From NCBI GenBank assembly GCA_023838465.1, contig JAIVEQ010000012.1, positions 1 to 64,000 of the forward strand: 64,000 nt of DNA, written 5' to 3'. Positions within the stretch are counted from its first letter, which is position 1; each line of letters starts with the position of its first letter. The notes beneath the pieces were generated by a model. That model did no database searches, was not told the origin of the DNA, and saw nothing but the letters and a program-made list of their open reading frames with translations. The translations under genes and the position numbers were made by a program. Positions 1 through 18,626 of this stretch are shown one piece after another. This DNA comes from Candidatus Thiodiazotropha sp. Its GTDB lineage: Bacteria > Pseudomonadota > Gammaproteobacteria > Chromatiales > Chromatiaceae.

Positions 1-458
1 ACTATTTGCTGTGTTGTGCTGAGCACACCATTGACACTATCGATGATGGGGATGAAGACCTCGGCGATGTTGACTACTACATTATCAATCATCTCTGTTA
101 TCGACTCCGCTGCCTGGGTGTAGGGCTTGATGATCGGGAAATAGTCGCCGATAGTGTCGATGTTCCTTGCCACATGATAGGCGTATTGCGTCCAAGACGT
201 GAGACTTACCAACTGGCCGATAGAAACCTGATTGGCGACCATCGCCCTGTTCGTATAGGCCTGAAAATTGAGCGCCCGTGCCTGCCAGATGAGACCGCTG
301 TAAACTGCAGCATCGGCCGTATTGACCAGACGGGACTTTTCAGAAGCGGTCTGCCCCGTGTTGAAAAGGACAAGTCCCAACAGGATCGTAGACATGAGGA
401 AGGCGATCCCTAGTGGGAGAGCTTGGCCCGTTTGCCTGGTGCGAGTTATACGATTCAT
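1..458 (-). CDS. TadG-like pilus assembly protein, 3' part beyond window
   Basis: An open frame starts at ATG 458 and runs off the left edge, so only the first 152 codons are seen. A purine-rich AAAGGA lies about 8 bases upstream. The N-terminus has the layout of TadE/TadG-like membrane-anchored proteins: a short basic stretch, then GQALPLGIAF, a single hydrophobic helix (residues about 11-31), then TGQTASEKSRLVNTADAAVY, a sequence typical of putative Flp pilus-assembly TadG-like N-termini. The remainder is predicted periplasmic. It lies 95 bp downstream of the Flp-like pilin and probably shares its operon. Role in Tad pilus assembly is known for the family; here it is inferred. Confidence 0.8.
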   Translation of the reverse strand, partial: MNRITRTRQTGQALPLGIAFLMSTILLGLVLFNTGQTASEKSRLVNTADAAVYSGLIWQARALNFQAYTNRAMVANQVSIGQLVSLTSWTQYAYHVARNIDTIGDYFPIIKPYTQAAESITEMIDNVVVNIAEVFIPIIDSVNGVLSTTQQI

Positions 459-553: not shown

Positions 554-880
554 CTAATTCCCCAGCGAGGCAGCTTCCGAATCATTTTCATGATAGTTGG
601 TCATGCTATTGGCTGATTCAGTAGCCAACGTCTCGGCTGCATCACCTAAACCACCAGCTGCACCTCGTGCTGCTGCACCACTGTTGCCACCAAGCTCTTG
701 CCCCACACCGGCAATTTGTGTTTCAACAATTTGGCCAAAATAACCGAATGCACCGATGGCGGCGACTGCGATGACTGCGATGACTGCGATGACTGCGATG
801 ACTGCGACGATGATGATGTACTCGGTCATACCTTGACCGAAATGAGTGCGTCGTGATGATTGATTGGATTTGATAAACAT
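554..880 (-). CDS. Flp-family (type IVb) pilin-like protein
   Basis: This 108-residue protein has a basic leader followed by FGQGMTEY, matching the prepilin cleavage motif of Flp pilins (cut after Gly, Glu at +5, Tyr at +6), and a hydrophobic helix built of repeated Val-Ile-Ala triplets. The C-terminal 55 residues are Gly/Ala-rich and polar, longer than in most Flp pilins. AAGGAG lies about 9 bases before the ATG. It would be processed by a TadV-type prepilin peptidase and assembled in the inner membrane. The neighbouring TadG-like gene supports a Tad locus. Unusual: the helix is encoded by a 9-bp tandem repeat (765-809). Confidence 0.75.
   Translation of the reverse strand: MFIKSNQSSRRTHFGQGMTEYIIIVAVIAVIAVIAVIAVAAIGAFGYFGQIVETQIAGVGQELGGNSGAAARGAAGGLGDAAETLATESANSMTNYHENDSEAASLGN
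765..809. repeat. 9-bp tandem repeat in the pilin membrane helix
   Basis: Four exact copies of ACTGCGATG and a fifth with one change (ACTGCGACG) lie head to tail. Each unit encodes three residues (Val-Ile-Ala on the coding minus strand), so changes in copy number keep the reading frame but alter helix length. Confidence 0.9.
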
Positions 881-1042: not shown

Positions 1043-1783
1043 TCAGTCGTCATAGTCGGGTAGCATCGGCGCGCCGTTAACAAACTCACCCAATGAAACC
1101 TCACGCCAGAGGCTCGACGGTTCATAATTACCGGGCGAGTCGTCGGTGAGAGCGATCTCCCGCAACTCGCTGATTTGGCCATCCCCTGTCTCCTGCCGAA
1201 TGACCACGCCAAGCAGAGTACTGTAGTGCTGAAGATGAGCCTGTCCCCGGCTATCGGTACAACGCCAGACACTCAATTCAGTCCCTCCAATGGCCCTTGT
1301 CGATTGTTTCTTTGCCGTCATACCGATGCAGGGTCTATTCAACAAAATACCTATCGAGTATTCCTGATTGTCAACTGCGATATCATGCTCACCGACCGGC
1401 CTGCCTTCTGATAATTCACTGAAAATATGCATTCCGGGGTTGGCTAGCCACTCCTGCCCTGTTTGATAGTTTTGAATTAAGACGAGTCCAGGCTCCCCAG
1501 GCTGTGGCGAAAGGCTTTCGGAACGCATGCCCCGTCTACTGAGCACCAGCCGTGTTCGCCTTTTTGTCTCCTCATTGTGTCTGTTGTATTCAACCAGAAC
1601 CGCACTGAAAGGTTGGACTGGTACAAAGGCGTCAGTGCCGTCTGGGTTCACCACCTCAGTCGCATAACAGAGATCAGTGGTGACAAAGAATATTAACGCA
1701 ACAAAGAACGGTGCTAGCGGTTGCCTTACCATGCTCATCCAATCAAAAATCCTTCTTTCAGATGCAATATTTCGACGCTTCAT
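1043..1783 (-). CDS. Exported protein of unknown function
   Basis: This 246-residue protein has a hydrophobic segment at about residues 24-41 ending before a Tyr-Ala-Thr site, consistent with a signal peptide; a second in-frame Met at residue 16 (MSMVRQ) is an alternative start. The mature part contains two Cys (CIGM and WRCTD) that could form a disulfide. I do not recognise a family with certainty. It lies 21 bp after the lipoprotein gene at 1805-2713 and points toward the pilin genes, so the two are probably co-transcribed. A role in the envelope is inferred from the signal only. Confidence 0.65.
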   Translation of the reverse strand: MKRRNIASERRIFDWMSMVRQPLAPFFVALIFFVTTDLCYATEVVNPDGTDAFVPVQPFSAVLVEYNRHNEETKRRTRLVLSRRGMRSESLSPQPGEPGLVLIQNYQTGQEWLANPGMHIFSELSEGRPVGEHDIAVDNQEYSIGILLNRPCIGMTAKKQSTRAIGGTELSVWRCTDSRGQAHLQHYSTLLGVVIRQETGDGQISELREIALTDDSPGNYEPSSLWREVSLGEFVNGAPMLPDYDD

Positions 1784-1804: not shown

Positions 1805-2713
1805 TCACCAACTATAGGTATTCGAAGTACCACTACCGGTTGTGACCACATACTCAGTGCAACTGATAAACTCAATTGAGCCCGATGACTGATTGGCACC
1901 GGTAAAACTCAAACGGCCCGCACCGGGACGATCATCCGGACAATCCAATGTAAAGGGAATCTCGGTGGTGACATCGATGTAACCGTGAGCAGGATCGTAG
2001 ATTCTTCCTGATGCCGTATAGGTCGAGTTGCCTTCTTCAGTGACAGAGATATCGGTCACACGGTAGAGTCGACCATCATAGCCACTGTAATCAGAAAAGA
2101 AGTTACAATTTCGAAAATGGGCCTCACAACTAAATGTTTTGTTAAACACCTGCGTTCCATTTCCGACTGTTGTCATTGAACCTGTGTAAACGGCAGTAAA
2201 TGCACTCGAATCAGTATCGTTAGCATATGTCACATGAATGTTGCCAGTGTAGGTGTAAAGAAAAAGCCCTTCCCCATAGCTACACTCATTAAATTCAAAA
2301 TCATTTATAAAGCCAGGGTCTGCTTCGATTTCTTCAATAGTGGCTGTTCCACCATGAGGACATAGCTCATTGCTGTCATCTACTATCAACATCGGTACTA
2401 ATCCCGAGGTTGAATTTAATGCCTTTGCAGCAGTTTGAGATGGAAATACAATGTCATTTTCATCAACAGCTCGCTTCACGCCAGACGCAGCGGTGATAGC
2501 AAGATCCTGGGCACTGGCTTCACTGACGACAGCCTGAGATTCGCTGCCTGTATAGGTGTTGGAGGTGTTGTCGACAGGGTTGTCGTTATTGACTGGGTCA
2601 CCCGTGTCCGTCGGGTTGTCGGAGGAGCCGCCTCCACCACCACATCCTTGAACCGTTAACTGTAGGGCTAATAGCGCCATCCATAGATAATTTGCTGATT
2701 CCTTCATTTCCAT
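1805..2713 (-). CDS. Putative lipoprotein with poly-Gly after the lipobox
   Basis: This 302-residue protein has a type II signal peptide with lipobox TVQGC, then GGGGGSS and an Asn/Asp/Thr-rich linker (to about residue 60). The remaining ~240 residues are Ser/Thr/Gly-rich with several Cys and an apparent beta-rich composition. Its overall plan matches the smaller lipoprotein at 15673-16698, which also has a Cys followed by poly-Gly, but clear sequence similarity is not visible. Function unknown. It is divergent from the TadE-RHS gene, with a long inverted repeat between them. Start may be ATG 2713 or the in-frame ATG 2707. Confidence 0.7.
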   Translation of the reverse strand: MEMKESANYLWMALLALQLTVQGCGGGGGSSDNPTDTGDPVNNDNPVDNTSNTYTGSESQAVVSEASAQDLAITAASGVKRAVDENDIVFPSQTAAKALNSTSGLVPMLIVDDSNELCPHGGTATIEEIEADPGFINDFEFNECSYGEGLFLYTYTGNIHVTYANDTDSSAFTAVYTGSMTTVGNGTQVFNKTFSCEAHFRNCNFFSDYSGYDGRLYRVTDISVTEEGNSTYTASGRIYDPAHGYIDVTTEIPFTLDCPDDRPGAGRLSFTGANQSSGSIEFISCTEYVVTTGSGTSNTYSW

Positions 2714-2994: not shown

Positions 2995-5900
2995 ATGCCG
3001 ATCATAGGGAACATGAGCCGCTGGTTCAGCCGCCAGCGCGGCGTTGCGATGACGGAGCTGCTGGTCTCACTACCTGCCCTGTTGCTGATGGGCCTGGGTG
3101 GATGGCAGACCGCCCTACTCTACGACGCCAAGACCACCCTCAACTACGCCACCTTCGAAGCGGCACGCAAAGGCGCTGTGACCCATGCCCAGAGCGGCCC
3201 CATGCGCCAGGAGTTGGGCCTGCGCCTGGCACCCCTGTTTGGCGGCGACGGCAGCCCACGCAAGGCGATCGCCGCAATCACCCGCTCCAGCCTCGATGTC
3301 GAGGACCCCCGCTTTACCGAGTTCGAGATCATCAACCCCACGGTGGAGGCGTTCGACGATTTTGGCCGTGAGATCGTTGATCCCCGCACCAACGATATCC
3401 ATTTCGGCATCCCCAACAGCCATCTGCGCTGGCGCGACCGTTCGATCAATGAGCACAGCGGCGTCAATATCCAGGATGCCAATCTGCTGAAGGTCAAGGT
3501 CACCTACGGCTATCAGCTGAAAGTACCTTTGATGGACCGGGTGATCCCGGCGGTGATGCGGCTGTTCGATCCGGAGAATGCGCTCTACTACAATTCGCGA
3601 CGGCTGCCGATCACCTCGGTGGCGACAGTACGTATGCAGTCGGATGCATGGCGCGACGACAATAATGTTCATGCCGAAACCCCTGGTGGCGGCGCTACCC
3701 CGCCCCCCTCAGAGGACGACCCGGAGCAAGAGGGCACTCCCCCGGATGATGAGGAAGGCCAAGGCGGTGATGACGACGATACGGATGATCCAGACTCATC
3801 AAATGAAGGTGACGGGCAAGATAACGGCAGCGGTGACAACAGCGATGGGGATACTGGGGGGTGTGACAACAACGATGGCGATGACCTGCCCTCGATCAGT
3901 GACGGCGATGACCAGGGTGGTCCTATGTGCCCGACAACCCAGGATGGCGACAGCGCCAGTCCCACCGCCCAGAGCAGTGGCATCGCCAGTACCCACACCG
4001 GCAACCCGATCCATGTCGTTACGGGCAACAAATACCAGCAGGAGGTCGATCTAACACCTTTGCCGGGGGCACTGGGTCTGCTTTTTAAGCGCCACTACAA
4101 CAGTCACAACGATGAGAGCGGCCACTTGGGCCGTGGCTGGAGCCACAGCTACGACCTGAGGCTCCAAGCGGACGGTGAAGCTTACCGCCTGCGCCAGAGT
4201 GACGGCCGGGTGATTCACTTCGAACCCAGTAACACGGCCGATCACTATACAGCCCCCCGTGCCAGTGATGGCTGGCTGCGGGTTAATGAAGCGCAGCTCA
4301 CCTGGCACTGGCGGGATGGGCGGCAACTCCAGTTCAGTCCACAAGGCCAATTACAACGCATCGTGCTGGCCACCGGACAAACGCTGAAGCTCTTCTACGA
4401 CCCCCAGGGGAAACTGTTTCTGGTGCGCGATCCACAAAGCCGGGAACTCACCCTTGATCACTACCCCAACGGCAGAATCAAAGCCCTCTATGATCCAACC
4501 GGTCAAGCAACCCGCTACCGTTATGACGAAGTGGGCAACCTAAAACAGGTCACCCGAGCGGACGACAGCCAACGGCTGTATCACTACGAAGATACCCACG
4601 ACACACATAATCTCACCGGCATCACCGATGAACGAGGTATCCGCTACGCCACCTGGGCCTATGACAACCAGGACCGGGCGATCCTCAGTACCCATGCGGA
4701 TCAAGTGGGCCAGGTAAAACTCGACTTCAGCACCCCTAGTGAGACCAAGGTCACCGACAGCCAGGGCAAGGTCAGCCGCTATACCACCGAAGTAAGAGAC
4801 GGCGTGGCCCTGGTCACCGCCATCCACGGTCCGGGCTGTTCCAGCTGTGGTAAGGGCGATGTCAGCTACCGTTATAACGAGCAGCTGCAACTGAGCGAGA
4901 TCGCCACTCAGGATGGAATTATCAAACAATACAGTTACGACGAACAAGGTCGCACCACAGCCGTTATCCAACAGGTTACCGGTGGCGTTTCACAAACGAT
5001 TGTACGCCACGAATACACTGACGACACCGTCCTGAAACCCAGTGCTGTGATCCACCCCAGCGTCCACCCCCAGGGCGAGCATCGTATCGAGACCCGCTAC
5101 AATGCCTCGGGCCAGACCACTGAGCTGACAGAACGGGGCTACCGTCCAGAAGCGGATGGGGGCTATACCCCGATCCAACGGACCACCCGTCTTGCCTATG
5201 ACGAAGCCGGCAACCTCACCGTCATTGATGGCCCGAGAGAGGATGTCGAAGACCGAATCCAGCTAAGCTACGACAGCATGCAGCGCCTCAGCGGTATTAC
5301 CTTAGCGGATGGCACAACACAAAATGTACTTGCCTACGACAACTATGGCCGCCCGAGTAAAATCCAGAACGGCAACCAAACACCGCTGACGATTCGATAC
5401 AGTGAACTTGGCAAGCCGCAACAGATCCGTCAAGGTCAAAGAAACGTCAGCTATGCGTATGACGCTGTAGGCCGACTGGTCAGTGTGACAGAGCCCGATG
5501 GGGAGACATTGAACCTCGATTACGATGCCGCAGGCCGGGCAGTCAGCATGCGCGACGCTGAAGGCAACAGCGTGCGAAAGTTGATCGACAGCGAGAACAG
5601 ACTGCTTGCCCATTCCATAGAGAGCGCGCAAGGCGATGTGCACCGGGCGACAATCTACCTGCGTGACGCCAATCAGCGCTTACGTGGCGTGGTCACCCCC
5701 GAAGGAATCCAGCGGATGGTCGGGTATGATGAAAAAGGGAAAAAGACACTGGACACCAATGGAGGCGGCAAAGGAAGCTATTTCATGCGTACCAAAACCG
5801 GTGCCCTGAAAGCGGTGACAGACGCAGACGGCGGCGAGCTACGCAAAGCCAGACTGGCCAACGGCCACATCACACTCACCCAGGACAGCCTCAAGCGCAT

Positions 5901-8421
5901 TGACTTGCTGGTGCATGATGACTTCGGTAACCGAATCGTTTGGCGCAACCCGGACAGCGGCCTGGCCTATTATCGATACGATCAGGCCGGCAATCTCATT
6001 GAAAAACGTGACGCTGCCAGCAATACAACAAACTATGAGTATGACGCAGCAGATCGATTGATAGGGTTGGAGAGCCCTGACGGGATAACCCATCTTCGCT
6101 ACCAAGCAGGCCTGCTGGCCGAGGTACAGGGACCAAACAGCAGACAGCGCTATAGCTACGACAATGAAGGGCGATTGGTCAGCCACAGCCGTGAGATAGA
6201 CGGACACCTGTTCACCACTACCTATACTTACGATCCCAAGACCGGCAAGCTCATCACCCGGCAATTACCAGGTGGCGAACGGCTGACCTATCGTTATCAG
6301 GCCAACCAGGGACGACTCAGCGCAGTGATAAAATCGGGTTGGCTCAGTGAACAACCCTTGTTGGAAGGCATCACCTACGAACCCTTCGGCCGTATCACCG
6401 GCTATACCCATGCCGACGGTGGCCGGACAGAGAAGGGCTACGACAAGAGCGGACGACTCATCCGTCAGGCACACACTGGATTCGGCAAATACAAACTGGC
6501 ATACAATGTCGCTGGTGAACTGGTCTTAATCGAAAAGGATCAACAGCAAAACCGCTATGTCTACGATGCCGCCGGTCGTCTGCACCAGGCTGACACGGCC
6601 ACCGGGCGGAAGGCGTATCGGTACGACGCACTGGGTAACCGCCTGGCCGAGCCATCGGGTTCGCTGAAGCAAGTGAGCGCCCAGACCCCGGCAAGTGCGG
6701 CATCCAATACAGGTAAAAGTAAAAAAGACCGTCTGGGTCGAGTGACAGCGCTGGGCCAACGACATTGGGAATACAATGCCGCCGGGCAGCCAGTCAGGTT
6801 CTACCGGGGAGAGCGGCTTGTCGCAGCATATCGCTACAACCACAAGGGTGAGCGCATCCGCAAGACGGTCTATCCCGATGACCCGGCGCAAGCGCCCGAG
6901 ACCACCTACTACCTGTACGACCTGCAACAGCGCCTCAGCGCAGAAGCCGATGAGGATGGCGACATCATCCGTCAGTACCTCTATCTCGATCGTACACCCT
7001 ACGCCATGCTTAAGGACGGCGTCGCCTACAGTATCCAGAGCGATCACCTTGGAGCACCACACAGCGTCACCGACGAAAAAAGCCGGCTCAAGTGGCAGGC
7101 CGACTATGACCCCTTTGGTCGCGCCACCGTCAAAACCCAAAGGATCGGCTTCAACCTGCGCCGCCCCGGACAATATGAAGATGCTGAATCAGGGCTCTAT
7201 GATAACTATCTACGCCGCTACGACCCAGATAGTGGCCGTTACCTGGAGCCCGATCCCCTGGGCAACCTGGACGGCATGAACCGCTACGCCTATGTGGGCA
7301 ACCGGCCGCTGGAGCGGACCGATCCGTTGGGGCTGTTTGGGGTGAGGGCAGGTACAAGAACTATATATTTACCCATTTCACCAATTGGTACTCCTGTGGG
7401 TATAACTATAGGAGCGGGATCTGCTGTTCATGAAACTATCGTGCTAGAAGCCTTCGAAAGATTCAATCGTGAGCATTCTGGTGCATTTTCCAATCACACC
7501 ATCGATCTGTTCATTGCAGCCAATGTCAGGACCGATCTTATGTTCGACGCCGGCCACCAGTTCAGTGGCGCCAATCACTTCGACAATCCCAATGACACCC
7601 CCTGGAATCAGGACTCTGGACCATCTAATTGGATAATGGACAGCATTAACTCAATACAAGGCCGCCGCTCGAACTACGCGGGCGATAACATACAGGCAGG
7701 CTGTACTATGGAACGGGAACCGATCTACGATATCGCCTCGCTGGTTGAGGATTTTGGTTCGTTGACCCATACCCTGGCCGATTTCTACGCCCACACCAAC
7801 TGGGCGGATCCTACCAGCCGTGGGGGGGCTTACCATATCGAACGAGAGACTTATGATTATGGCCTATTTCGTGAGGGTGGTTATGTGCCCCCCGGTCTCA
7901 ACATGAACGAAACCTTTGACTTCGATACCATGAGTGATGCTGAGTTAAGTGATTGGATGACAAGACTCTACTCCGGTAATGCCGAGGGTTGTGCCGATCT
8001 GGAGTGCGCTATATTGGGCATGACAATAAACAGAAATAACTGGAACGGCGACCTCAACCTCTCACCGGAAGATAGTTACTACCACAATGTAACAGGCGGT
8101 CAGGACAACGAAGGCCGATGGGATGAGACAACCCATGCCTATTGGCAGAAGGATGACAGAGAAAAAGCTGAAGACATACATTCGTTTATTAGGGCGTCGC
8201 AATTGGCCGTGGCTCATACCGTGGAGGAGATCGAGCGCCTTTGGGCTGAGTCGGAAGGGAATGAGATGCTTCGTAGGATATATGCGGCAAATGAACAACA
8301 AAAAGAAGGTCTTAATGTTTATTACGCAGAACGCCCGCTCAATGGAACAACCTCTGACTGCCCATTATGCCCTGTTTTTGCAACTTGGCGTGATCATCGT
8401 GTCGATATCAACAATCCGTAA
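2995..8421 (+). CDS. TadE-like/RHS fusion protein with zinc-phospholipase-like C-terminal toxin domain
   Basis: This is an 1808-residue polymorphic-toxin-like protein. Residues about 14-220 resemble a TadE-like pseudopilin domain (RGVAMTELLVSLP, then a membrane helix and LPITSVATVRMQSDA). Residues 222-335 are an Asp/Gly/Pro linker. From residue 336 (GNPIHVVTGNKYQ) comes a DUF6531-like start, then many YD repeats (YRYDEVGNL-type) and the RHS core PGQYEDAESGLYDNYLRRYD, ending at DPLGL 1443-1447. The last 361 residues carry H1479, D1514, H1521, H1528, H1592-x3-D1596-x3-H1600-x-N-W and H1741-x3-E1745, resembling zinc phospholipase C/HetC-like metal sites. GGAG sits 7 bases before the ATG. The next gene, a lipoprotein, begins 9 bases after the stop. 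Toxin activity and membrane target are inferred. Confidence 0.85.
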   Translation: MPIIGNMSRWFSRQRGVAMTELLVSLPALLLMGLGGWQTALLYDAKTTLNYATFEAARKGAVTHAQSGPMRQELGLRLAPLFGGDGSPRKAIAAITRSSLDVEDPRFTEFEIINPTVEAFDDFGREIVDPRTNDIHFGIPNSHLRWRDRSINEHSGVNIQDANLLKVKVTYGYQLKVPLMDRVIPAVMRLFDPENALYYNSRRLPITSVATVRMQSDAWRDDNNVHAETPGGGATPPPSEDDPEQEGTPPDDEEGQGGDDDDTDDPDSSNEGDGQDNGSGDNSDGDTGGCDNNDGDDLPSISDGDDQGGPMCPTTQDGDSASPTAQSSGIASTHTGNPIHVVTGNKYQQEVDLTPLPGALGLLFKRHYNSHNDESGHLGRGWSHSYDLRLQADGEAYRLRQSDGRVIHFEPSNTADHYTAPRASDGWLRVNEAQLTWHWRDGRQLQFSPQGQLQRIVLATGQTLKLFYDPQGKLFLVRDPQSRELTLDHYPNGRIKALYDPTGQATRYRYDEVGNLKQVTRADDSQRLYHYEDTHDTHNLTGITDERGIRYATWAYDNQDRAILSTHADQVGQVKLDFSTPSETKVTDSQGKVSRYTTEVRDGVALVTAIHGPGCSSCGKGDVSYRYNEQLQLSEIATQDGIIKQYSYDEQGRTTAVIQQVTGGVSQTIVRHEYTDDTVLKPSAVIHPSVHPQGEHRIETRYNASGQTTELTERGYRPEADGGYTPIQRTTRLAYDEAGNLTVIDGPREDVEDRIQLSYDSMQRLSGITLADGTTQNVLAYDNYGRPSKIQNGNQTPLTIRYSELGKPQQIRQGQRNVSYAYDAVGRLVSVTEPDGETLNLDYDAAGRAVSMRDAEGNSVRKLIDSENRLLAHSIESAQGDVHRATIYLRDANQRLRGVVTPEGIQRMVGYDEKGKKTLDTNGGGKGSYFMRTKTGALKAVTDADGGELRKARLANGHITLTQDSLKRIDLLVHDDFGNRIVWRNPDSGLAYYRYDQAGNLIEKRDAASNTTNYEYDAADRLIGLESPDGITHLRYQAGLLAEVQGPNSRQRYSYDNEGRLVSHSREIDGHLFTTTYTYDPKTGKLITRQLPGGERLTYRYQANQGRLSAVIKSGWLSEQPLLEGITYEPFGRITGYTHADGGRTEKGYDKSGRLIRQAHTGFGKYKLAYNVAGELVLIEKDQQQNRYVYDAAGRLHQADTATGRKAYRYDALGNRLAEPSGSLKQVSAQTPASAASNTGKSKKDRLGRVTALGQRHWEYNAAGQPVRFYRGERLVAAYRYNHKGERIRKTVYPDDPAQAPETTYYLYDLQQRLSAEADEDGDIIRQYLYLDRTPYAMLKDGVAYSIQSDHLGAPHSVTDEKSRLKWQADYDPFGRATVKTQRIGFNLRRPGQYEDAESGLYDNYLRRYDPDSGRYLEPDPLGNLDGMNRYAYVGNRPLERTDPLGLFGVRAGTRTIYLPISPIGTPVGITIGAGSAVHETIVLEAFERFNREHSGAFSNHTIDLFIAANVRTDLMFDAGHQFSGANHFDNPNDTPWNQDSGPSNWIMDSINSIQGRRSNYAGDNIQAGCTMEREPIYDIASLVEDFGSLTHTLADFYAHTNWADPTSRGGAYHIERETYDYGLFREGGYVPPGLNMNETFDFDTMSDAELSDWMTRLYSGNAEGCADLECAILGMTINRNNWNGDLNLSPEDSYYHNVTGGQDNEGRWDETTHAYWQKDDREKAEDIHSFIRASQLAVAHTVEEIERLWAESEGNEMLRRIYAANEQQKEGLNVYYAERPLNGTTSDCPLCPVFATWRDHRVDINNP

Positions 8422-8430
8422 CGATTGAAT

Positions 8431-9447
8431 ATGAGAGTTATTCTTACAATTCTTTTGGCAGCCGGGCTGATGGCAGGCTGCACTTCGCCGAAGTTCAATA
8501 AGGAAATGGTATGTGAGGTTGAGGGTGATTGGGGACAAGCACTCAAGTTCATTACCTACAAGACCTATACATTTCCGGACCTGGGTAGAGTTGGCGGTGG
8601 CAAGCATCTCTCTGCGGGTGTGTACTTTGATGGCGGGGTGTTCTTCTGGCGCAGTCAATGGTTGATGAAAGAGTTCACCCTTGGGCAGTTGAAGTTTGAG
8701 CAGGTGACAGCTGCACAGGGTTGCAAACAATCGCTGATCCAAGATGGTACGGTGGTTTTGTTGCCCTATCCGACCCGGGGTGGTATCGATATTGATCATT
8801 TCGTGGTCAGTGATGATCTATGGTCAAGATTTAAGGGGCGAACTCTACAGATAAGGGGTGGACCACCCTTCCTGTCGGACAAGGAAGGAAATCTTTTGAT
8901 AGTGCGCAACTGGCGACCAGTTGGAACAACTCTGTCTGATCATGTGCTCCAGGTTCGTGAGGAGGCACCATTAGTAAAGCCGTTTGAGGAGAACGGTACT
9001 AGCAAGAGAATCAGTCGCATGGGAATGTACTATAACGGCTATACAGATATCTGCGCGGGCTGTGAAACCATCCTTTGGCGAACAGTGAAGAGCACAGATC
9101 TGGGCATGACCTGGAAAGTAACCGACTGGGGCATAATTGATGAGGCCCGATTACCGCCGGAGGCGGAACTGCCGTTAAAGGGGAGTGAGTATTACTACGA
9201 TGTTGATATGGAGAAGGTATTACCTTTAGCACCAGGTACACGATTATCTCTTGGAATGGATCATAAATTTATGGATATTATAGATGGTAGAGTAGTAATG
9301 GCATGGCAATGCCCAGAGAAAGGACAACCGGTTTCTAGGGAGAAGGGAACATTGATTTGCTCAGATCCCAGGAGTATTGGTCAACAATTTGTCGAAAAAG
9401 AAGGTCGGAAATTAGAGTGGACGGCACTAAGCTTTCCAGATAAATAA
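8431..9447 (+). CDS. Putative immunity lipoprotein 1 (paralog family)
   Basis: This is a 338-residue lipoprotein with a signal peptide ending in LMAGC and then TSPKF. It belongs to a family of four in this locus, sharing CEVEGDWGQAL, ITYKTYTFPD, AGVYFDGG, STDLGMTWKV, LPPEAELPLKG, SREKGTLICSDPRS and EWTAL. The TDLGMTW motif recalls the sialidase-like or Tli-type folds of phospholipase immunity lipoproteins, but that assignment is tentative. The gene follows the toxin stop by 9 bases with no clear ribosome site (TAACGATTGAATATG), suggesting translational coupling; TTG 8425 is an alternative start. A periplasmic, lipid-anchored immunity protein fits a toxin acting on membranes. Confidence 0.75.
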   Translation: MRVILTILLAAGLMAGCTSPKFNKEMVCEVEGDWGQALKFITYKTYTFPDLGRVGGGKHLSAGVYFDGGVFFWRSQWLMKEFTLGQLKFEQVTAAQGCKQSLIQDGTVVLLPYPTRGGIDIDHFVVSDDLWSRFKGRTLQIRGGPPFLSDKEGNLLIVRNWRPVGTTLSDHVLQVREEAPLVKPFEENGTSKRISRMGMYYNGYTDICAGCETILWRTVKSTDLGMTWKVTDWGIIDEARLPPEAELPLKGSEYYYDVDMEKVLPLAPGTRLSLGMDHKFMDIIDGRVVMAWQCPEKGQPVSREKGTLICSDPRSIGQQFVEKEGRKLEWTALSFPDK

Positions 9448-9512
9448 AGGGAATATTATTACAAGGAAATATATGGTTTTTAGACTTTTCTCGTTTAAGA
9501 ATTAGCCTAATT

Positions 9513-9566
9513 CTGCCCGGTATTTGTGACCTAGCGTGATCACTGGGTTGATATCACCAATCCGTA
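9513..9566 (+). pseudogene. Relic of the toxin gene's 3' end before immunity gene 2
   Basis: Read in frame from 9513, the stretch gives CPVFVT, a TAG stop, then RDHWVDITNP and TAA. This matches the last 17 codons of the intact toxin (CPVFATWRDHRVDINNP) with the Trp codon changed to a stop. The stop-to-start junction TAACGATTGAATATG is identical to that before immunity gene 1. The scar shows that immunity gene 2 once stood directly behind a toxin. Confidence 0.85.
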
Positions 9567-9576
9567 ACGATTGAAT

Positions 9577-10641
9577 ATGCGAGTAATCCTCACAACTCTT
9601 TTGGCAGCCGGGCTGTTGGCGGGCTGCACTTCACCGAAGTTCAACAAGGAACTGGTGTGTGAGGTTGAGGGTGATTGGGGACAAGCACTCAAGTTCATTA
9701 CCTACAAGACCTACACCTTTCCGGATATGGGTCGGTTTGGCGGCGGTAAGCATCTCACTGCGGGTGTCTACTTTGATGGTGGGTTGTTTTTTTGGCGCAG
9801 CAAATGGCTGATGGATGATTTTGTTTTTGGGCCATTGGGGTTCGAGCAGCAGGTCGCGAAACAGGGATGCACCCAATCAACCATCAGTGACAATGTTGTG
9901 GTGTGGCTCCCTTATGCGAGTCAAGGTGGCCCGAACATGTCGCAAATCGTGGTGAGTGAAGGGCCATGGTCAGGATTTCACAGATATGTGATTCCAAGCC
10001 GTGAAGGACCGCCCTATCTATCTGATGGTGAGGGAAATCTATTAACACTGCTCAACTGGCGACCAGCAGATGCTAGCTTGAAGAAAGGCATTCTACGCAT
10101 AAGGCAAGAAACGCCCTCAGCAAAAATGTTCATCGATAGTAATGGGAAGTTTTTAGCGAGAAAACACGTCATTTACTCAGGCTGGCAAGACAGACCTTGC
10201 GAAGGCTGTGATCCCATACTCTGGCGAACCGTGGAGAGTACAGATCTTGGCCTGACCTGGAAGGTGGCCGACTGGGGCATAATTGATGAGGCCCGGTTGC
10301 CACCGGAGGCGGAACTGCCGTTGAAGGGGAGTGAGTATTACTACGACGTAGAGATTGAGAAAATATTACCATTGCCACCGGATACACCACTTTCGTTGGG
10401 TTATAAGCATAGATATCTTGATTTTTTTAGTAAAAATAACAGATCAATAACCACAGCGAAGTGTCCGGAAAAAGGCCAGCCAGTTTCAAGGGAGAAAGGC
10501 ACACTCATCTGCACAGATTCAAGAAGTATTGATCGTTATTTTGTCGGGCGTGAAGGTTACAAGCCAGAATGGACGGCGCTTGATTTTTCGAAGGATCATA
10601 TAAAAAGACTGAAAAGAAAAATGGGACTGGATGCGAATTAA
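9577..10641 (+). CDS. Putative immunity lipoprotein 2 (paralog family)
   Basis: This 354-residue paralog of the 8431 gene has lipobox LLAGC and keeps all the shared motifs. It ends with a basic extension (KDHIKRLKRKMGLDAN) that is nearly the same in lipoprotein 4 but missing in 1 and 3. The start ATG 9577 follows the toxin-tail relic; TTG 9571 is the alternative. A 125-base stretch (9937-10061) is identical to lipoprotein 3 although flanking sequence differs, pointing to gene conversion. No intact toxin gene precedes it, so it is an orphan immunity gene by context, possibly still giving protection against related toxins. Confidence 0.75.
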   Translation: MRVILTTLLAAGLLAGCTSPKFNKELVCEVEGDWGQALKFITYKTYTFPDMGRFGGGKHLTAGVYFDGGLFFWRSKWLMDDFVFGPLGFEQQVAKQGCTQSTISDNVVVWLPYASQGGPNMSQIVVSEGPWSGFHRYVIPSREGPPYLSDGEGNLLTLLNWRPADASLKKGILRIRQETPSAKMFIDSNGKFLARKHVIYSGWQDRPCEGCDPILWRTVESTDLGLTWKVADWGIIDEARLPPEAELPLKGSEYYYDVEIEKILPLPPDTPLSLGYKHRYLDFFSKNNRSITTAKCPEKGQPVSREKGTLICTDSRSIDRYFVGREGYKPEWTALDFSKDHIKRLKRKMGLDAN

Positions 10642-10685
10642 TCAAAGCCCCTGAACGATTACAAATAAGTTAGGGCAAAGTTGTT

Positions 10686-10701
10686 GTCGATATCACCAAT
10701 C
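10686..10701 (+). pseudogene. Short scar of a toxin 3' end before immunity gene 3
   Basis: The 16 bases read Val-Asp-Ile-Thr-Asn, the same as the end of the displaced toxin copy (GTCGATATCACCAATC at 13492-13507). The scar lies 14 bp upstream of immunity gene 3. It is short, but its position repeats the pattern seen before genes 1, 2 and 4. Confidence 0.6.
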
Positions 10702-10715
10702 TATGTAACCAGAAA

Positions 10716-11729
10716 ATGCGTACAGTCATCGCGTCTATTTTGCTAGCTGTGCTGTTGGCAGGCTGTACCTCGCCGAAGTTCGGCAAGGAACTGGTATGCG
10801 AGGTTAATGGTGATTGGGGACAAGCTCTTCAATTTATCACCTACAAGACCCAAACCTTTCCAGATCTTGGGCGGTTTGGAGGCGGGCGTATTCTCACTGC
10901 GGGCGTTTACTTTGATGGCGGAGTATTTTTTTGGCGCAGTAAATGGCTAATGGATGGGTACGCTTTCGGTCCAATAGGGTTTACGCAGCAGGTTGCGAAG
11001 CAGGGGTGTATGCAGTCAACCATCCAAGATGGCATTGTGGTTTGGCTTCCTTACTCAAGTCCAGGTGGTCCGAATATGTCGCAAATCGTGGTGAGTGAAG
11101 GGCCATGGTCAGGATTTCACAGATATGTGATTCCAAGCCGTGAAGGACCGCCCTATCTATCTGATGGTGAGGGAAATCTATTAACACTGCTCAACTGGCG
11201 GCCAGCAGATGCTAGCATGGCTGAAGGTATTTTAAAGATAAGAGAAGAAACACCATTGGTAGATGTATTCTTTGACGAAAAAGGCTCGATGACCAAAGAG
11301 TTCGGTATTTATGTTGACTGGCAGGAGCGACCTTGCGAAGGCTGTGAAACAATCCTTTGGCGAACCGTGGAGAGCACAGATCTGGGGATGACCTGGAAGG
11401 TAACCGATTGGGGCATAATTGATGAGGCCCGGTTGCCGCCGGAGGCGGAACTGCCGTTGAAGGGTGGGGAGTATTACTACGATGTTGAGTTGGAGAAGGT
11501 ATTACCCCTGCCACCGGATGCACCGCTTTCGTTGGGTATTAAGCATAAGTATATTAGTCACTCCACGGGTTGGCCGAAAAATTGCCCCGAAAAGGACCAA
11601 CCAGTCTCAAGGGAGAAAGGCACGCTGATCTGTTCCGATCCAAGAGGTATTGACAGAATTTTTGTTAAGCGAGAAGGTCGTAAACCCGAGTGGACCGCAC
11701 TTGATCTTCCCAGCGGCAAACTGGATTGA
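10716..11729 (+). CDS. Putative immunity lipoprotein 3 (paralog family)
   Basis: This 337-residue lipoprotein has lipobox LLAGC, then TSPKFGKELVCEV. It shares the family blocks, including CEGCETILWRTVES and SREKGTLICSDPRG, and lacks the basic C-terminal tail of copies 2 and 4. It contains the 125-base tract (11076-11200) identical to lipoprotein 2. The start is ATG 10716, directly after a toxin-tail scar. Function is inferred from the family context as immunity against a toxin of the same or a related type. Confidence 0.75.
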   Translation: MRTVIASILLAVLLAGCTSPKFGKELVCEVNGDWGQALQFITYKTQTFPDLGRFGGGRILTAGVYFDGGVFFWRSKWLMDGYAFGPIGFTQQVAKQGCMQSTIQDGIVVWLPYSSPGGPNMSQIVVSEGPWSGFHRYVIPSREGPPYLSDGEGNLLTLLNWRPADASMAEGILKIREETPLVDVFFDEKGSMTKEFGIYVDWQERPCEGCETILWRTVESTDLGMTWKVTDWGIIDEARLPPEAELPLKGGEYYYDVELEKVLPLPPDAPLSLGIKHKYISHSTGWPKNCPEKDQPVSREKGTLICSDPRGIDRIFVKREGRKPEWTALDLPSGKLD

Positions 11730-11743
11730 GTTTTATCTTTTAA

Positions 11744-11920
11744 TTGAGCAGTTCCACTTGTTCAGTGCGAAGGATATATGCTACAGACCAAACAGGAAAG
11801 GAATCCGAGAGGGTACAATATAGTTTAGAAGGTTGTGCGCTCTGTCCTGGGTTGGGTGATTTCAAAGAAATCGATAGCCAAATCGACTACGTTGCTGAAT
11901 ACATTAGCGAGCAGAACTAA
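11744..11920 (+). pseudogene. Possible tail of a second, unrelated toxin
   Basis: An open frame of 58 codons without a good start runs from just after a stop at 11741-11743 to TAA 11918-11920. It ends GDFKEIDSQIDYVAEYISEQN and contains CALCPG. It has codon use like a real gene and lies 16 bases before the start of the membrane protein gene at 11937. By analogy with the scars around it, it is best read as the surviving C-terminus of another RHS toxin whose immunity gene follows. No family is recognised. Confidence 0.45.
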
Positions 11921-11936
11921 TTGCGAGACCGATAGT

Positions 11937-12308
11937 ATGGACGCCGCTGGCCTTATTTATATGTATTACACCGTTCTTATTCTAGCGGGACTGGTATTTA
12001 TCAGTTTGCTACTTATTATTTTTTATCAATATGGAAATAACAAAACAATTAGTAAAAAAATAGTTGGGATAACGATTGTTTTGTTTGCCCTCTATTTAGC
12101 TGTATGTTGGGAACCGATCATAACGACATTGATTGTTATGCCATCCATGTGTAGGGAGTCTGGTGGTCTTCATATTTATAAGAATGTCAAAGTAGAGGGT
12201 TTTTTTTACAATATTTTTGTAAAAGAATATCTAACTAAATATGGTTACTCGTTTGCTGAATATGTGGATTATTCTCAATACAAGAAGAAAAAATATATAA
12301 AAAAATAA
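11937..12308 (+). CDS. Membrane protein, 5' part of a frameshifted putative immunity gene
   Basis: From ATG 11937 the product has 123 residues with two membrane helices (about residues 5-28 and 41-60), then MCRESGGLHIYKNVKV and EYLTKYGYSFAEYVDY, ending in a Lys/Tyr-rich KKKKYIKK. An upstream GTG (11835) keeps the frame but overlaps the toxin-tail relic, so 11937 is preferred. The pattern of a Cys-x3-GG-hydrophobic block after a helix is seen in many small orphan proteins near polymorphic toxins. The stop TAA overlaps the ATG of the next frame (TAATG). A-rich, low-GC codon use differs from the housekeeping genes. Confidence 0.6.
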   Translation: MDAAGLIYMYYTVLILAGLVFISLLLIIFYQYGNNKTISKKIVGITIVLFALYLAVCWEPIITTLIVMPSMCRESGGLHIYKNVKVEGFFYNIFVKEYLTKYGYSFAEYVDYSQYKKKKYIKK

Positions 12309-12634
12309 TGGGGTCATCTGGGAATATCTTGATAGATGAAGTTTGGGATGGACAATCACCACAAAGTCGGTATCACTATTTAACTCGCCAACTTGTTAAA
12401 ACAAAAAAAACAGGTGCCGTGAAGTATTTTAAAATCAGAGAGGAAAAAGACTATATTTTGGATACCAAGTCAAATGAGATTATTGGGGAGATTATTAGAT
12501 ATACTTATTCAGGAAGTGAGATTCAGTATGCCATGCACAGGATGCTGGCAGATAAAGACAGAACTTGCTGGTCATCTGAACGGGATCCAAAAGATATACC
12601 CCTTCCGGTACATGTCTTGCAGCCAAGTCAATAA
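12308..12634 (+). CDS. 3' part of the frameshifted putative immunity gene
   Basis: The 108-codon frame begins ILIDEVWDG after a few residues and continues with SRYHYLTRQLVK, KYFKIREEKDYILDTKSNEI and IRYTYSG. It reads as the direct continuation of the upstream protein. It lies exactly in the -1 frame, and the junction contains A AAA AAA (12299-12305), a classic slippery heptamer. Options are programmed frameshifting, coupled re-initiation at TAATG, or a true disabling mutation or sequencing error in a homopolymer. The final codons run up to the displaced toxin copy. Confidence 0.5.
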   Translation: MGSSGNILIDEVWDGQSPQSRYHYLTRQLVKTKKTGAVKYFKIREEKDYILDTKSNEIIGEIIRYTYSGSEIQYAMHRMLADKDRTCWSSERDPKDIPLPVHVLQPSQ

Positions 12635-13510
12635 CCCCAACCATTCGCACAATCCAAATGATGTACCCAGAAATCAGACATCGGGCTCCACCTCCTGGAT
12701 AATGGAGAGCATCAACTCGATACAAGGTCGCCGTTCGAACTACGCGGGAGATAACATACAGGTAGCCTGTAACATGGAGCGTGAAGCGTGAAGCGTGAAG
12801 CGATTTACGATATCTCACCACTGGTTGAGGATTTTGGTTCGTTGACGCATACGCTGGCTGACTTTTACGCCCATACCAACTGGGTGGATCCCACCAGCCG
12901 GGGTGGCGCTTACGCTTTTGAGCGTGAGACATATGACTATGGTCTATTCCGTGAGAGCGGCTATGTGCCACCCGGCCTCAACATGAACGAAACCATTGAC
13001 TTCGATACCATGAGTGATGCTGAGTTAAGTGATTGGATGACAAGACTCTACTCCGGTAATGCCGAGGGTTGTGCCGACGAAGACTGTGCTTTCACCAACA
13101 CCATTTTGGGCATGGTTGGCATAGATAACTGGAACGGTGACCTTATCCTCACACCGGAAGATAGTTACTATCACAATGTAAAAGGTGGTCAGGACAACGA
13201 GGGCAGATGGGATGAGACAACCCATGCCTATTGGCAAAAGGATTCGAGAGAAGACGCAGAAGATATAAATTCTTTTATCAGGGCATCGCAATTGGCTGTG
13301 GCGCATACCGTAGAGGAGATCGAGCGGCTTTGGGCCGCAACGGAAGGGAATGATGACCTACGTAGGATATTTTCTGAAACTGAGCAGGAAAAAATTGAAG
13401 GCAATGTCTACTACGCAGAACGTCCACTCAATGGAGGTTTCCCCGACTGCCCACACTGTCCTGTTTTTGGAAGCTGGCGTGATCATCGTGTCGATATCAC
13501 CAATCCGTAG
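12631..13510 (+). pseudogene. Displaced copy of the zinc-phospholipase-like toxin domain, frameshifted
   Basis: The copy aligns with residues about 1528-1808 of the intact toxin, starting near HNPNDVPRNQ and running to WRDHRVDITNP. It keeps THTLADFYAHTNW and AVAHTVEEIERLW, so part of the predicted metal site survives, but it lacks the N-terminal His/Asp ligands and any RHS or export part. After MEREA the frame is broken by two extra 7-base units (12781-12801). The longest remaining frame starts at GTG 12788 (240 codons). Such orphan C-terminal modules can recombine into the expressed gene upstream. Confidence 0.8.
12781..12801. repeat. Triplicated 7-bp unit (GTGAAGC) that breaks the toxin frame
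   Basis: Three perfect copies of GTGAAGC lie in tandem where the intact frame would need one. The 14 extra bases shift the frame by two. Loss of two units, or gain of one, would restore an open frame. Confidence 0.85.
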
Positions 13511-13519
13511 CGGTTGAAT

Positions 13520-14581
13520 ATGCGTACCGTTATCGTTCTGATATTGCTGGCAGTACAGATAGCAGGCTGCACCTCGCCGAAGTTCAACAAGAAACTGGCG
13601 TGCGAGGTGGAAGGGGATTGGGGACAGGCGCTCCAGTTTATCACCTACAAGACCTACACCTTTCCAGATATGGGTCGGTTTGGCGGTGGCAAACTTCATA
13701 CCGCCGGTGTTTACTTTGATGGTGGGTTGTTTTTCTGGCGCAGTAAATGGTTGATGGCTGAATATGCTTTTGGGCCGTTAGGGTTCGAGCAGCAGGTCGC
13801 GAAACAGGGATGCATACAATCAACAATCCGTGACAATGTTGTGGTATGGCTCCCCTATGCGAGCCCAAGCGGACCCCACATGTCGCAAATCGTGGTGGGT
13901 GAAGGGCCATGGTCAAGGTTTCACCGCTATAAGATTCCAAGCCGTGAAGGGCCGCCCTACTTGTCCAACGGAGAAGGAAATCTATTGACGCTACCCAACT
14001 GGCGCCCTGCGGGTGCAAACTTGGAGAATGGTGTATTTCGCATACGCGAAGAGACGCCCTTGACGGAAATGTTCAACGATAATAAAGGGAAGTTTTTGGC
14101 AAGAAAACACATCATTTACTCAAACTGGCAAGAGAGACCTTGCGAAGGCTGTGAGCCGGTGCTCTGGCGAAACATCGAGAGTACTGATTTGGGCAAGACC
14201 TGGAAGGTGGTGGACTGGGGTGTGATCGATGTGTCCAGGTTACCACCGGAGGCGGAACTGCCATTGAAGGGGGGGGAGTATTACTACGATGTAGAGATGG
14301 AAAAGGTGCTGCCCCTGCCGCCTGATGTACTACTTTCGTTGGGTTTTAAGCACAAGCATCTCAAGCTTTTCGGCAGTGGTATGTTAATAACTACGTCAAA
14401 CTGTCCAGAAAAAGGTCAGTCGGTCTCAAGGGAGAAAGGCACGCTGATCTGTTCCGATCCAAGAAGTATTGATAGAAATTTTGTTAAGCGGGAAGGTTAT
14501 AAACCCGAATGGACGGCGCTTGATTTTCCGAAAGATCGAATAAAAAGATTGAGAAGGAAGATGGGATTGGACGCGAATTAA
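13520..14581 (+). CDS. Putative immunity lipoprotein 4 (paralog family)
   Basis: This 353-residue lipoprotein has lipobox QIAGC and all the family blocks, and the same basic end (KMGLDAN) as lipoprotein 2. It starts 9 bases after the stop of the displaced toxin copy (TAGCGGTTGAATATG), the same junction as toxin and immunity 1; TTG 13514 is the alternative start. It is therefore the cognate partner of the displaced module. Bases after its stop resemble those after lipoprotein 2, showing the duplicated unit extends beyond the coding sequence. Confidence 0.75.
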   Translation: MRTVIVLILLAVQIAGCTSPKFNKKLACEVEGDWGQALQFITYKTYTFPDMGRFGGGKLHTAGVYFDGGLFFWRSKWLMAEYAFGPLGFEQQVAKQGCIQSTIRDNVVVWLPYASPSGPHMSQIVVGEGPWSRFHRYKIPSREGPPYLSNGEGNLLTLPNWRPAGANLENGVFRIREETPLTEMFNDNKGKFLARKHIIYSNWQERPCEGCEPVLWRNIESTDLGKTWKVVDWGVIDVSRLPPEAELPLKGGEYYYDVEMEKVLPLPPDVLLSLGFKHKHLKLFGSGMLITTSNCPEKGQSVSREKGTLICSDPRSIDRNFVKREGYKPEWTALDFPKDRIKRLRRKMGLDAN

Positions 14582-14788: not shown

Positions 14789-14890
14789 TAGATTGCGAAG
14801 GAAATACAGGGACAGTCATCATTTGCAGCTAACACTATCATGAGTTATTGTTAAAGAAACATGGATTATAAATTTGCCAAGGAGATGGCT

Positions 14891-15301
14891 ATGACTATAT
14901 CTCGTAAGAAACAGATCTGTCTGGAAGAAACTCCCTATTACCACTGCATATCCTGTTGTGATAGGCGTGCTTATCTATGTTGTGAAGATAAATTTTCAGC
15001 TAACAACTACGAACACCGTAGAGATTGGCTAGTCGGCCAACTCAGGAAAATCACTAATATTTTTGCAATCGACATCTGCGCCTATGCTGTGATGCAAAAT
15101 CATACTCATACCGCGGAAGATAGTAGATATACAGAAACAGTTATCATTTGCAGTTCACAAATTGATCACGATTTGAGGAATAACATTCTGGAACATGACT
15201 ACTGTATTGGCTTTTTGTGTATTCGGGAATCTGTTTTTGGATCATTGATTGGGAATATCACTTTAATCTTGATCAAAAATAATACTTTGATGCTCATCTG
15301 A
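14891..15301 (+). pseudogene. Truncated REP-associated (Y1) tyrosine transposase
   Basis: From ATG 14891 (AAGGAG about 7 bases upstream) the first ~75 residues match the start of TnpA-REP proteins: PRK-like TISRKKQICLEETPYYHC, then NYEHRRDWLVGQL and FAIDICAYAVMQNHTH, corresponding to the NHxH metal motif region. After that the sequence no longer resembles the family and the conserved catalytic Tyr part is missing. These enzymes mobilise palindromic extragenic repeats. The gene is dead and marks past mobility at the toxin locus. Confidence 0.75.
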
Positions 15302-16866: not shown

Positions 16867-18626
16867 GAGGCCGAAGACCCCCAAGGCTACGCCACCGCAC
16901 TCGACTACAACGGCCTGGGACAACTCCTCGCCGTTACCCAGCCGGGCAATCGGGTCACTCAACTGCATTACGACAAAAACGGTAAAGCTATAGGTCTGAC
17001 CGACCCGAGGGAAAACACCACCGCCCAACAGAAAGACGACTTTGGCAACACCATCCACCAAAGCCATCCCGACACCGGCACAACCTATACACCTACGATC
17101 CAGCAGGCAATCGCATCCAAAAGACCAATGCCGTGGGTACAGGATGTACAGGAACAGCCCAGATCACCACCTACCGTTACGACGCGGCCAACCGCCTGAT
17201 CGAAGAGACCACCCCGAGCGGCACCACCACTCTCGACTACGATCCCAAGACCGGCCGTCTGGCCCAGCTCACCGATGACAACAGCCATGAGGGCTTTGCC
17301 TACGACGACCAGGGTCGCCTCACCCAACACAGCCGTCACCTCGACGGCCATCGATTCATCACAGGCTACACCTATGACACAGCCGGCAAGCTGACACAAA
17401 AACAACTTCCTGACGGCCAGACCCTGAGCTACCACTACTACCAGGAAGGGACACAAAAAGGCCAACTCCATACCATTACAAGAGAAAGCCTGATGGGTCT
17501 CAGGGAGACCCCACTGGTCGGCGAGATCGACCAGGACGCCAGCGATGGAGAGACCGGTCTGACCTTTGGTAATGGCCTGAAAAAAATAAGACACCATGAC
17601 GAGCTTGGAAGAACAACGGCCATCGACCACAGCCAACAACTTAAACTGCAGTACCAATACGATGAACAAGGAAAAATCATCGGTATCGACTACAACGGTT
17701 TACTACAAAGCTACGACTACGACCCGCTGGGCCGACTGACCCAAGCCGAGACAAAACTGGGAAACTACCGCTACGACTATGACAGCCTGGGTAACCGCAC
17801 CCAAAAACAACACACCGACACAGAAGGCAATACCACCACCCAAGAAAACCGCTATCCCGACTCAGGCAAAGGCAACCGGCTACTGAGCCAAAGCAACGGC
17901 GATAGCTAAGACTACCAATATAACGCCTCGGGCAGTCCCAAACAGATCGGCGAGCGTCGTTACGCATACAACGATCAGCAACGTCCGGTGAAACTCTACC
18001 GGGTCGATCCAAAAGACACGAAAAAACAGATCCTGCTGGCGGAGTATGCCTACAACCGCTTTGGCGAGCGGATCAAGAAGGTAACGTATGCCGTGCATGG
18101 ATGCACAAATGCCGCGGGTGCAGGATGTATAGGAGCGGCGAACCTCAGTAAAAATCCCAAAGTCACCTATTACCTCTACGACGGTCATCAGTTAACGGCA
18201 GAAGCCGACGAAAACGGCAAGGTCATCGCCCAATACCTCTATCAGAAACAACGGCCGATCCTGAAGCTGGCAGGTAAAACGGCGTACGCCATCCATACCG
18301 ATCAGCTGGGTGCACCCAGAACAGTCACCGATGAAGATCAAAAAACAGTCTGGTCGGCGGACTACAGCCCGTTTGGGTTGATACAGATCGAACAACAGCA
18401 GATCACGCTAAATCTCAGGCTACCTGGGCAGTATGAAGATCAGGAGTCAGGGACATATTACAACTACCAGCGTGATTATGATCCCCATACCGGGCGTTAT
18501 CTGACCAGCGATCCGATTGGGCTGAAGGGCGGACTGAATACCTATGCCTATGTGGGTGGGGATCCAATAGGGGCGATTGATCCTTTGGGCTTGTATAGAT
18601 TAGTTATGGGCTTTGAAGCTCATTAG
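16867..18626 (+). pseudogene. RHS repeat protein pseudogene lacking both ends
   Basis: The region codes for YD repeats and a complete RHS core (LRLPGQYEDQESGTYYNYQRD, then GGLNTYAYVGGDPIGAIDPLGL). It lacks any N-terminus: the frame opens after a stop at 16864. Near 17088 two extra bases break the frame within a TYTYDPAGNR motif, and at 17907-17909 a TAA replaces a Tyr codon before DYQYNASG. After DPLGL only ten residues remain, so the toxin domain is lost. The largest open parts are 17133-17909 and 17988-18626. It could still serve as a recombination donor. Confidence 0.85.

Follow-up and report, generated by a model that had tools for sequence, protein, structure and literature searches.

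The window analysed here, a 64,000-nucleotide stretch of Candidatus Thiodiazotropha sp. (GCA_023838465.1) that starts at the end of contig JAIVEQ010000012.1 (C12), encodes a protein of 1808 amino acids in which a TadE domain is fused to an RHS shell and a C-terminal toxin domain (open reading frame (ORF) at 2995-8421, + strand). The fusion is probably a contact weapon for which a Tad pilus serves as the site of display or as the export route, i.e. a polymorphic toxin with a complete TadE as its trafficking domain. The chances are slightly better than even that such fusions represent a new toxin delivery route, in which the minor pilin at the tip of the Tad pilus doubles as a polymorphic toxin (RHS or PT-HINT) whose toxin is swapped by recombination while TadE is kept, in several gammaproteobacterial families. 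The domain make-up, the homology to TadE, the position within the operon, a cargo that is exchangeable and linked to the genes behind it, and the selection on TadE were established directly.

Architecture of the TadE-RHS-toxin fusion

The fusion is composed of the following parts, given with the evidence for each:
2995..3648, + strand: TadE minor-pilin domain, residues 1-218 (Pfam, alignment with standalone TadE, AlphaFold model, dN/dS)
3652..3999, + strand: acidic low-complexity linker, residues 220-335 (sequence)
4000..4221, + strand: DUF6531, residues 336-409 (Pfam)
4222..7335, + strand: RHS repeat shell with the Rhs-associated core, closed by the DPLGL autoprotease motif (Pfam, NCBIfam, motif)
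7336..8418, + strand: predicted C-terminal toxin domain, residues 1448-1808, Het-C/VWA7-N-like (sub-cut-off Pfam match, alignment with the homologue in genome G070)

A Pfam scan placed the TadE match (PF07811) at residues 16-58 with 30.1 bits, above the curated cut-off of 22.9, and also recovered DUF6531, 12 RHS repeat stretches and RHS PF03527. The NCBIfam Rhs_assc_core covers residues 1371-1447 and is closed by the DPLGL autocleavage motif (residues 1443-1447), directly ahead of the C-terminal domain. The linker between TadE and DUF6531 consists for 29 % of D and E. The same scan found no PAAR domain, the hallmark looked for in an Rhs effector of the type VI secretion system (T6SS); the N-terminus is TadE instead. 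An earlier note on this DNA, made from the letters alone, had described a TadE-like N-terminus of ~220 residues and an acidic linker in a fusion to RHS, and these parts were all recovered. An origin of the fusion in an assembly artefact or frameshift was ruled out by the single-contig genomes G003 and G015, which each carry the same architecture at two loci as intact ORFs of 1919-2010 amino acids.

The TadE part (~218 residues) can be aligned over its full length with standalone TadE proteins of other gammaproteobacterial lineages, showing 39-43 % identity and 39 invariant columns, and the homology stops near their own C-terminal ends (ATVRMQS..). A class III prepilin site, RQRG^VAMTE, is found after G16 with E at +5. 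Both the G and the E are invariant in the alignment, and none of the 11 genus copies checked has lost the site (G^xAxxE). Pairwise ratios of nonsynonymous to synonymous substitution (dN/dS) in the TadE part have a median of 0.17 among genus copies, indicating purifying selection, and hence the TadE head and not the anchor alone is preserved. An AlphaFold model built from 11 sequences (predicted local distance difference test (pLDDT) 77.6; predicted template modelling score (pTM) 0.72) has a long helix at the N-terminus and, behind it, a head with strands, which, as far as a model goes, is as expected of a pilin. Each of the genomes G000, G003, G015, G019 and G070 has one prepilin peptidase gene (PF01478) and none was seen within the Tad operon; processing of the fused pilins may depend on this general peptidase. 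The earlier note had described the N-terminus as TadE-like, with a single helix and a periplasmic tail. It comprises more than that, namely a complete domain. Its full-length homology and low dN/dS do not fit the generic signal anchor that the note had named as the outcome speaking against a Tad component. Judged by sequence, the N-terminus is a complete TadE minor pilin.

Tad operons and exchange of the toxin end

The minus-strand genes to the left of the fusion have their counterparts at the head of the Tad operon in the complete genome G003:
3..458, - strand: TadG-type gene, cut by the contig end (Pfam PF13400, 31.6 bits)
554..880, - strand: Flp-type pilin, GMTEYIII (homologue at the same operon position in G003, locus L065)
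1043..1783, - strand: conserved protein, head of the Tad operon (homologues in Tad operons of G003, G009, G020 and SZUA-21/G035)
1805..2713, - strand: lipoprotein-like gene at the operon head, in divergent orientation to the fusion (G003 has a homologue upstream of tadG, G021 one beside tadG and a fusion)

The fusion is thus divergent and adjoins an operon head with tadG and flp, the two neighbours that had been recognized before. CpaB, the secretin, FHA-TadA, TadB, TadC and TPR/TadD of the same genome are encoded at the end of contig C33, and from gene order we infer that C12 and C33 are adjacent, joining the two operon halves. No tadE follows tadD on C33; the slot is empty. Whole-genome searches yielded two TadE domains only, both in toxin fusions: the one in the window and a second copy on contig C73. 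If a fusion is indeed the sole available TadE, the toxin would be expected in the pilus whenever the pilus is built. The C73 copy (L010, 12398-18125) shares 82 % identity over residues 1-720, is interrupted in frame near residue 720 and ends in a different, lipase-type toxin with a lipase-like GFSRGAAMA motif. It has fatty-acid oxidation genes and no Tad genes as neighbours.

Elsewhere in the genus the TadE-toxin gene is the last gene of the Tad operon, after tadD/TPR, in G003, G015, G006 and G012 (in G006 the contig end falls inside the fusion), while in G019 one lipoprotein gene lies between tadD and the fusion. The outgroups G035 and G024 have a standalone TadE of 234-241 amino acids in the same slot, and TadE homologues in other named genomes adjoin Tad genes. 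The FHA-TadA ATPase, counted as present above 500 bits, occurs in 11 of 22 genus genomes, and each of these also carries a fusion or the remnant of one; of the other 11, 8 lack both and 3 have only a fusion fragment (Fisher p ~5e-4, calculated by hand and with kinship ignored). In G004 and G018 (L042, L043) the operon stretch read lacks tadB and tadC, TadE measures 328-368 amino acids including an acidic linker, and G018 retains a remnant of the RHS start; these operons look decayed, as if the weapon had been lost along with the pilus. G006 has a second Tad locus, a canonical one whose TadE genes are of the ordinary short kind. In G017 the tadE slot (L064, contig C98, 5199-11870) holds a TadE fragment of ~65 amino acids only, and an intact fusion is located elsewhere (L051). 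Cas1-like and Cas9-like proteins are encoded a few kilobases from the TadE fragment at L064.

Similar fusions were found in at least four other gammaproteobacterial families, genomes G070, G077, G089 and G118 belonging to four different ones. Two of these carry the fusion in the tadE slot: in G070 with an RHS shell, a toxin end homologous to that of the window and a homologous lipoprotein beside it, and in G077 with PT-HINT cargo. G089 and G118 have RHS-Tle1 fusions distant from Tad genes. The cultured Steroidobacter agaridevorans (strain SA29-B) and Peristeroidobacter soli (strain JW-3) encode TadE-PT-HINT-Tox-REase-5 proteins within a Tad operon. The TadE parts of the G070, Steroidobacter and G077 fusions likewise score above the Pfam cut-off. 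The searches called for by the earlier note, for the domains themselves and for other proteins with TadE plus RHS, both gave matches (genus copies; G070, G089, G118), and co-occurrence of fusions with Tad genes, whose absence the note would have counted against the idea, was found in the operons of several genomes and families. Mapping the fused state onto a TadE tree takes 7 changes, of which well-supported branches force at least 6; the changes all fall within one side of the tree. The count is rough, as some unfused rows are fragments or remnants, and points to repeated gain or loss of the fused state.

In a phylum-wide PF07811 sample of 398 genomes, only two of the matches listed from outside the genus had frames of more than 600 amino acids, both without an RHS hit. 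These two regions are not counted as further fusions, since their frames look like GC-rich open frames. The plasmid NZ_CP087831.1 of Moraxella bovis (L158, 2783-14553) carries an FHA-type Tad operon with a TadE of 333 amino acids and, 18 bp further on, a separate RHS gene; a second RHS gene lies farther along. This unfused counterpart is not supported as a broken fusion, as the RHS protein has a signal-peptide-like start of its own. In two Burkholderiaceae metagenome-assembled genomes (L096, L097) the TadE ORF opens with a DUF192-like stretch, suggesting a DUF192-TadE fusion.

Differing ends are found behind similar cores, the cargo types being RHS-Tle1, RHS-Het-C-like, PT-HINT-Tox-REase-5 and other PT-HINT ends. 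The next gene tracks the toxin type across families: between G003 and G089, both of Tle1 type, the C-terminal toxin region matches with 271 bits and the next gene with 110 bits. Judging from these matches, linkage of a putative immunity gene that varies with toxin type is present for the Tle1-type ends and for the pair of G070 and the window. By the same kind of evidence TadE behaves as a trafficking module for polymorphic toxins, as PAAR or Sec N-termini do elsewhere.

Residues 1448-1808 of the window fusion match VWA7_N in all three members of the toxin-end group (best E 4.1e-6, yet 20-22 bits against a cut-off of 27.5 where bits are shown), and the Pfam match to Het-C is weak (0.016). The toxin end contains an HxxxDxxxH motif (H1592, D1596, H1600; nucleotides 7768-7794), and THTxADFYAH is conserved in all three members, with further histidines shared with the G070 homologue in the alignment. 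HxxxDxxxH is also a metal motif of zinc-dependent phospholipase C enzymes, for which reason a lipid-attacking metal hydrolase is the likeliest predicted activity. A profile of the toxin end gave no match among sequences in the PDB, and the toxin end gave none among plasmids. The region downstream of the fusion holds the following features:
8425..9447, + strand: lipoprotein 1, predicted immunity, lipobox LMAGC, 3 bp past the fusion stop (ORF list, G070 homologue)
9571..10641, + strand: lipoprotein 2, paralogue, predicted immunity (ORF list, comparison)
10716..11729, + strand: lipoprotein 3, paralogue, predicted immunity (ORF list, comparison)
12621..13510, + strand: second toxin C-terminus, displaced (orphan) and preceded by stops, ORF 12788-13510 (68-78 % identity to the end of the fusion)
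13514..14581, + strand: lipoprotein 4, paralogue, predicted immunity, behind the orphan toxin end (ORF list, comparison)

The homologue of lipoprotein 1 in G070 sits beside the homologous toxin end, and the four paralogues (8425-14581) are probably periplasmic immunity proteins. Farther downstream, at 17085-18626, the window holds an RHS core remnant with broken frames and 44 % identity to residues 992-1453 of the fusion. Related transposase-like proteins (CVSRCVRRAYLCG..) or fragments thereof are located near several fusion loci (window 14861-15301; L038 16437-17432; L041 16851-17891) and possibly serve as a vehicle for copying or recombination.

Proposed delivery and rival explanations

That the toxin is anchored in, or exported by, a Tad-type machine, as had been suggested before, is the reading best supported by the data; its processing, assembly, delivery and toxicity we infer. 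The fusion would enter the inner membrane as prepilins do, and the prepilin peptidase of the genome would cleave it after G16. Its TadE part would then be taken up in the TadE/F/G complex at the tip, by which the Tad pilus is primed, so that the RHS shell with the toxin end would come to lie at the pilus tip, or would be passed to the secretin channel, and would reach a neighbouring cell on contact. Cutting at the DPLGL site would free a lipid- or envelope-attacking hydrolase, from which the downstream periplasmic lipoproteins would protect the producer.

Several observations weigh against this delivery by the pilus. In its folded state an Rhs cocoon has dimensions of 86 x 65 A (PMC8765631) and the pore of the RcpC ring of Pseudomonas aeruginosa is ~5 nm wide (PMC12307814), so the folded shell should not fit and passage would require either an unfolded protein or a wider ring. 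Unfolded passage, a wider ring in this subtype or release as in the type II secretion system (T2SS) may each solve this size problem. Many of the fusions are copies located at a distance from the main Tad operon (C73, L051, L141, L142), the fusions at L039 and L041 have a tadG-type gene as their only Tad neighbour, and fusion fragments occur without FHA-TadA in three genomes (G005, G011, G021). A T6SS is present in Thiodiazotropha. The enzyme-like C-terminal domain described in the earlier note has an HxxxDxxxH motif and a Het-C/VWA7-N likeness, but the toxin end stays below the cut-off of the family profile, and its structure model (pLDDT 34) has no usable fold. Comparison of the TadE model with solved structures in the PDB (Foldseek, VIA-align) gave no significant pilin match, which is uninformative in that perhaps few Tad minor pilins have been solved.

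The orphan fusions, the fragments without FHA-TadA, the T6SS and the steric problem of the cocoon would all agree with TadE serving only as an inner-membrane anchor or for periplasmic targeting, the toxin leaving via the T6SS, vesicles or lysis without any role of Tad. We regard this as unlikely, since a whole globular TadE kept under purifying selection is superfluous for a mere anchor and the tadE slot of the operon is filled by fusions. The fusion has no PAAR part, and no match to the T6SS sheath protein VipB was found in G070 and G077, two genomes outside the genus with slot fusions; on these two grounds the identity of a T6SS Rhs effector was rejected. Alternatively, TadE might act as a pseudopilin piston in the manner of a T2SS, with the RHS toxin cleaved off and driven out through the secretin in soluble form instead of staying on a long pilus. 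The Tad and T2SS machineries are related, and the separate RHS gene beside the Tad operon of the M. bovis plasmid indicates that tip display by fusion is not the sole arrangement, but a covalent link would be needless unless position on the filament matters, and this explanation appears quite improbable. Very improbable, finally, is a structural or adhesive pilus tip, directed at the host gill or at a surface, with a toxin end that Rhs recombination has left as a side effect. It would suit the symbiosis of the close relatives with clams, the adhesive role of Tad pili and the use that RHS/YD shells can have as scaffolds in adhesion. However, the cargo includes Tle1 phospholipase, Tox-REase-5 and PT-HINT, downstream genes track the toxin type, and four lipoprotein paralogues and an orphan toxin end are present in the window, all of them hallmarks of polymorphic toxins.

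With a toxin carried by a TadE minor pilin, cargo, carrier and antidote are named in one operon, and the question whether Tad pili deliver toxins can be put to a direct test in cultured bacteria. Such pili are widespread, and TadE can be added to the trafficking domains by which such systems are found by sequence.

Comparison with known systems

The closest likeness is with the Kil system of Myxococcus xanthus, a Tad-like pilus in which TadE/F/G-type minor pilins form exchangeable, variable tips; both the assembly of the pilus and killing on contact depend on these pilins (Herrou et al. 2025, PMC12075869; Seef et al. 2021, PMC8460266). Both are Tad-type pili with minor-pilin tips bearing variable domains; the contact-dependent killing is that of Kil. 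The toxin partnering the Kil pilus in killing was not identified as of PMC12075869, and Rhs, polymorphic toxins and fusions are not mentioned there. In contrast, the minor pilin described here itself bears recognizable toxin families with linked immunity candidates.

Rhs toxins of the T6SS, such as RhsA of Pseudomonas protegens (PMC8765631), share the DUF6531/RHS shell, the DPxGL core, the exchangeable end, the downstream immunity gene and orphan ends. They differ in that TadE here replaces the PAAR N-terminus and that the fusions also occur in genomes without a T6SS sheath gene (G070, G077). The order of trafficking domain, RHS/PT-HINT prelude, toxin and immunity gene agrees with the polymorphic toxin catalogue of Zhang et al. 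(2012, PMC3482391), the accessible part of which makes no mention of TadE, pilus or pilin as a trafficking mode. Tip pilins of type IV pili also carry an extra module at the tip (PilB/PilC of Streptococcus sanguinis; TcpB with TcpF of Vibrio cholerae; cited in PMC12075869), but these are lectins, VWA domains or a docked secreted factor and not a covalently fused polymorphic toxin. No report of fusions joining Tad or TadE to Rhs or polymorphic toxins was found in the literature within reach, preprints and most subscription papers lying outside it. The parts are known, a TadE minor pilin and an Rhs polymorphic toxin; their combination would be new, as would be, if confirmed, the delivery route.
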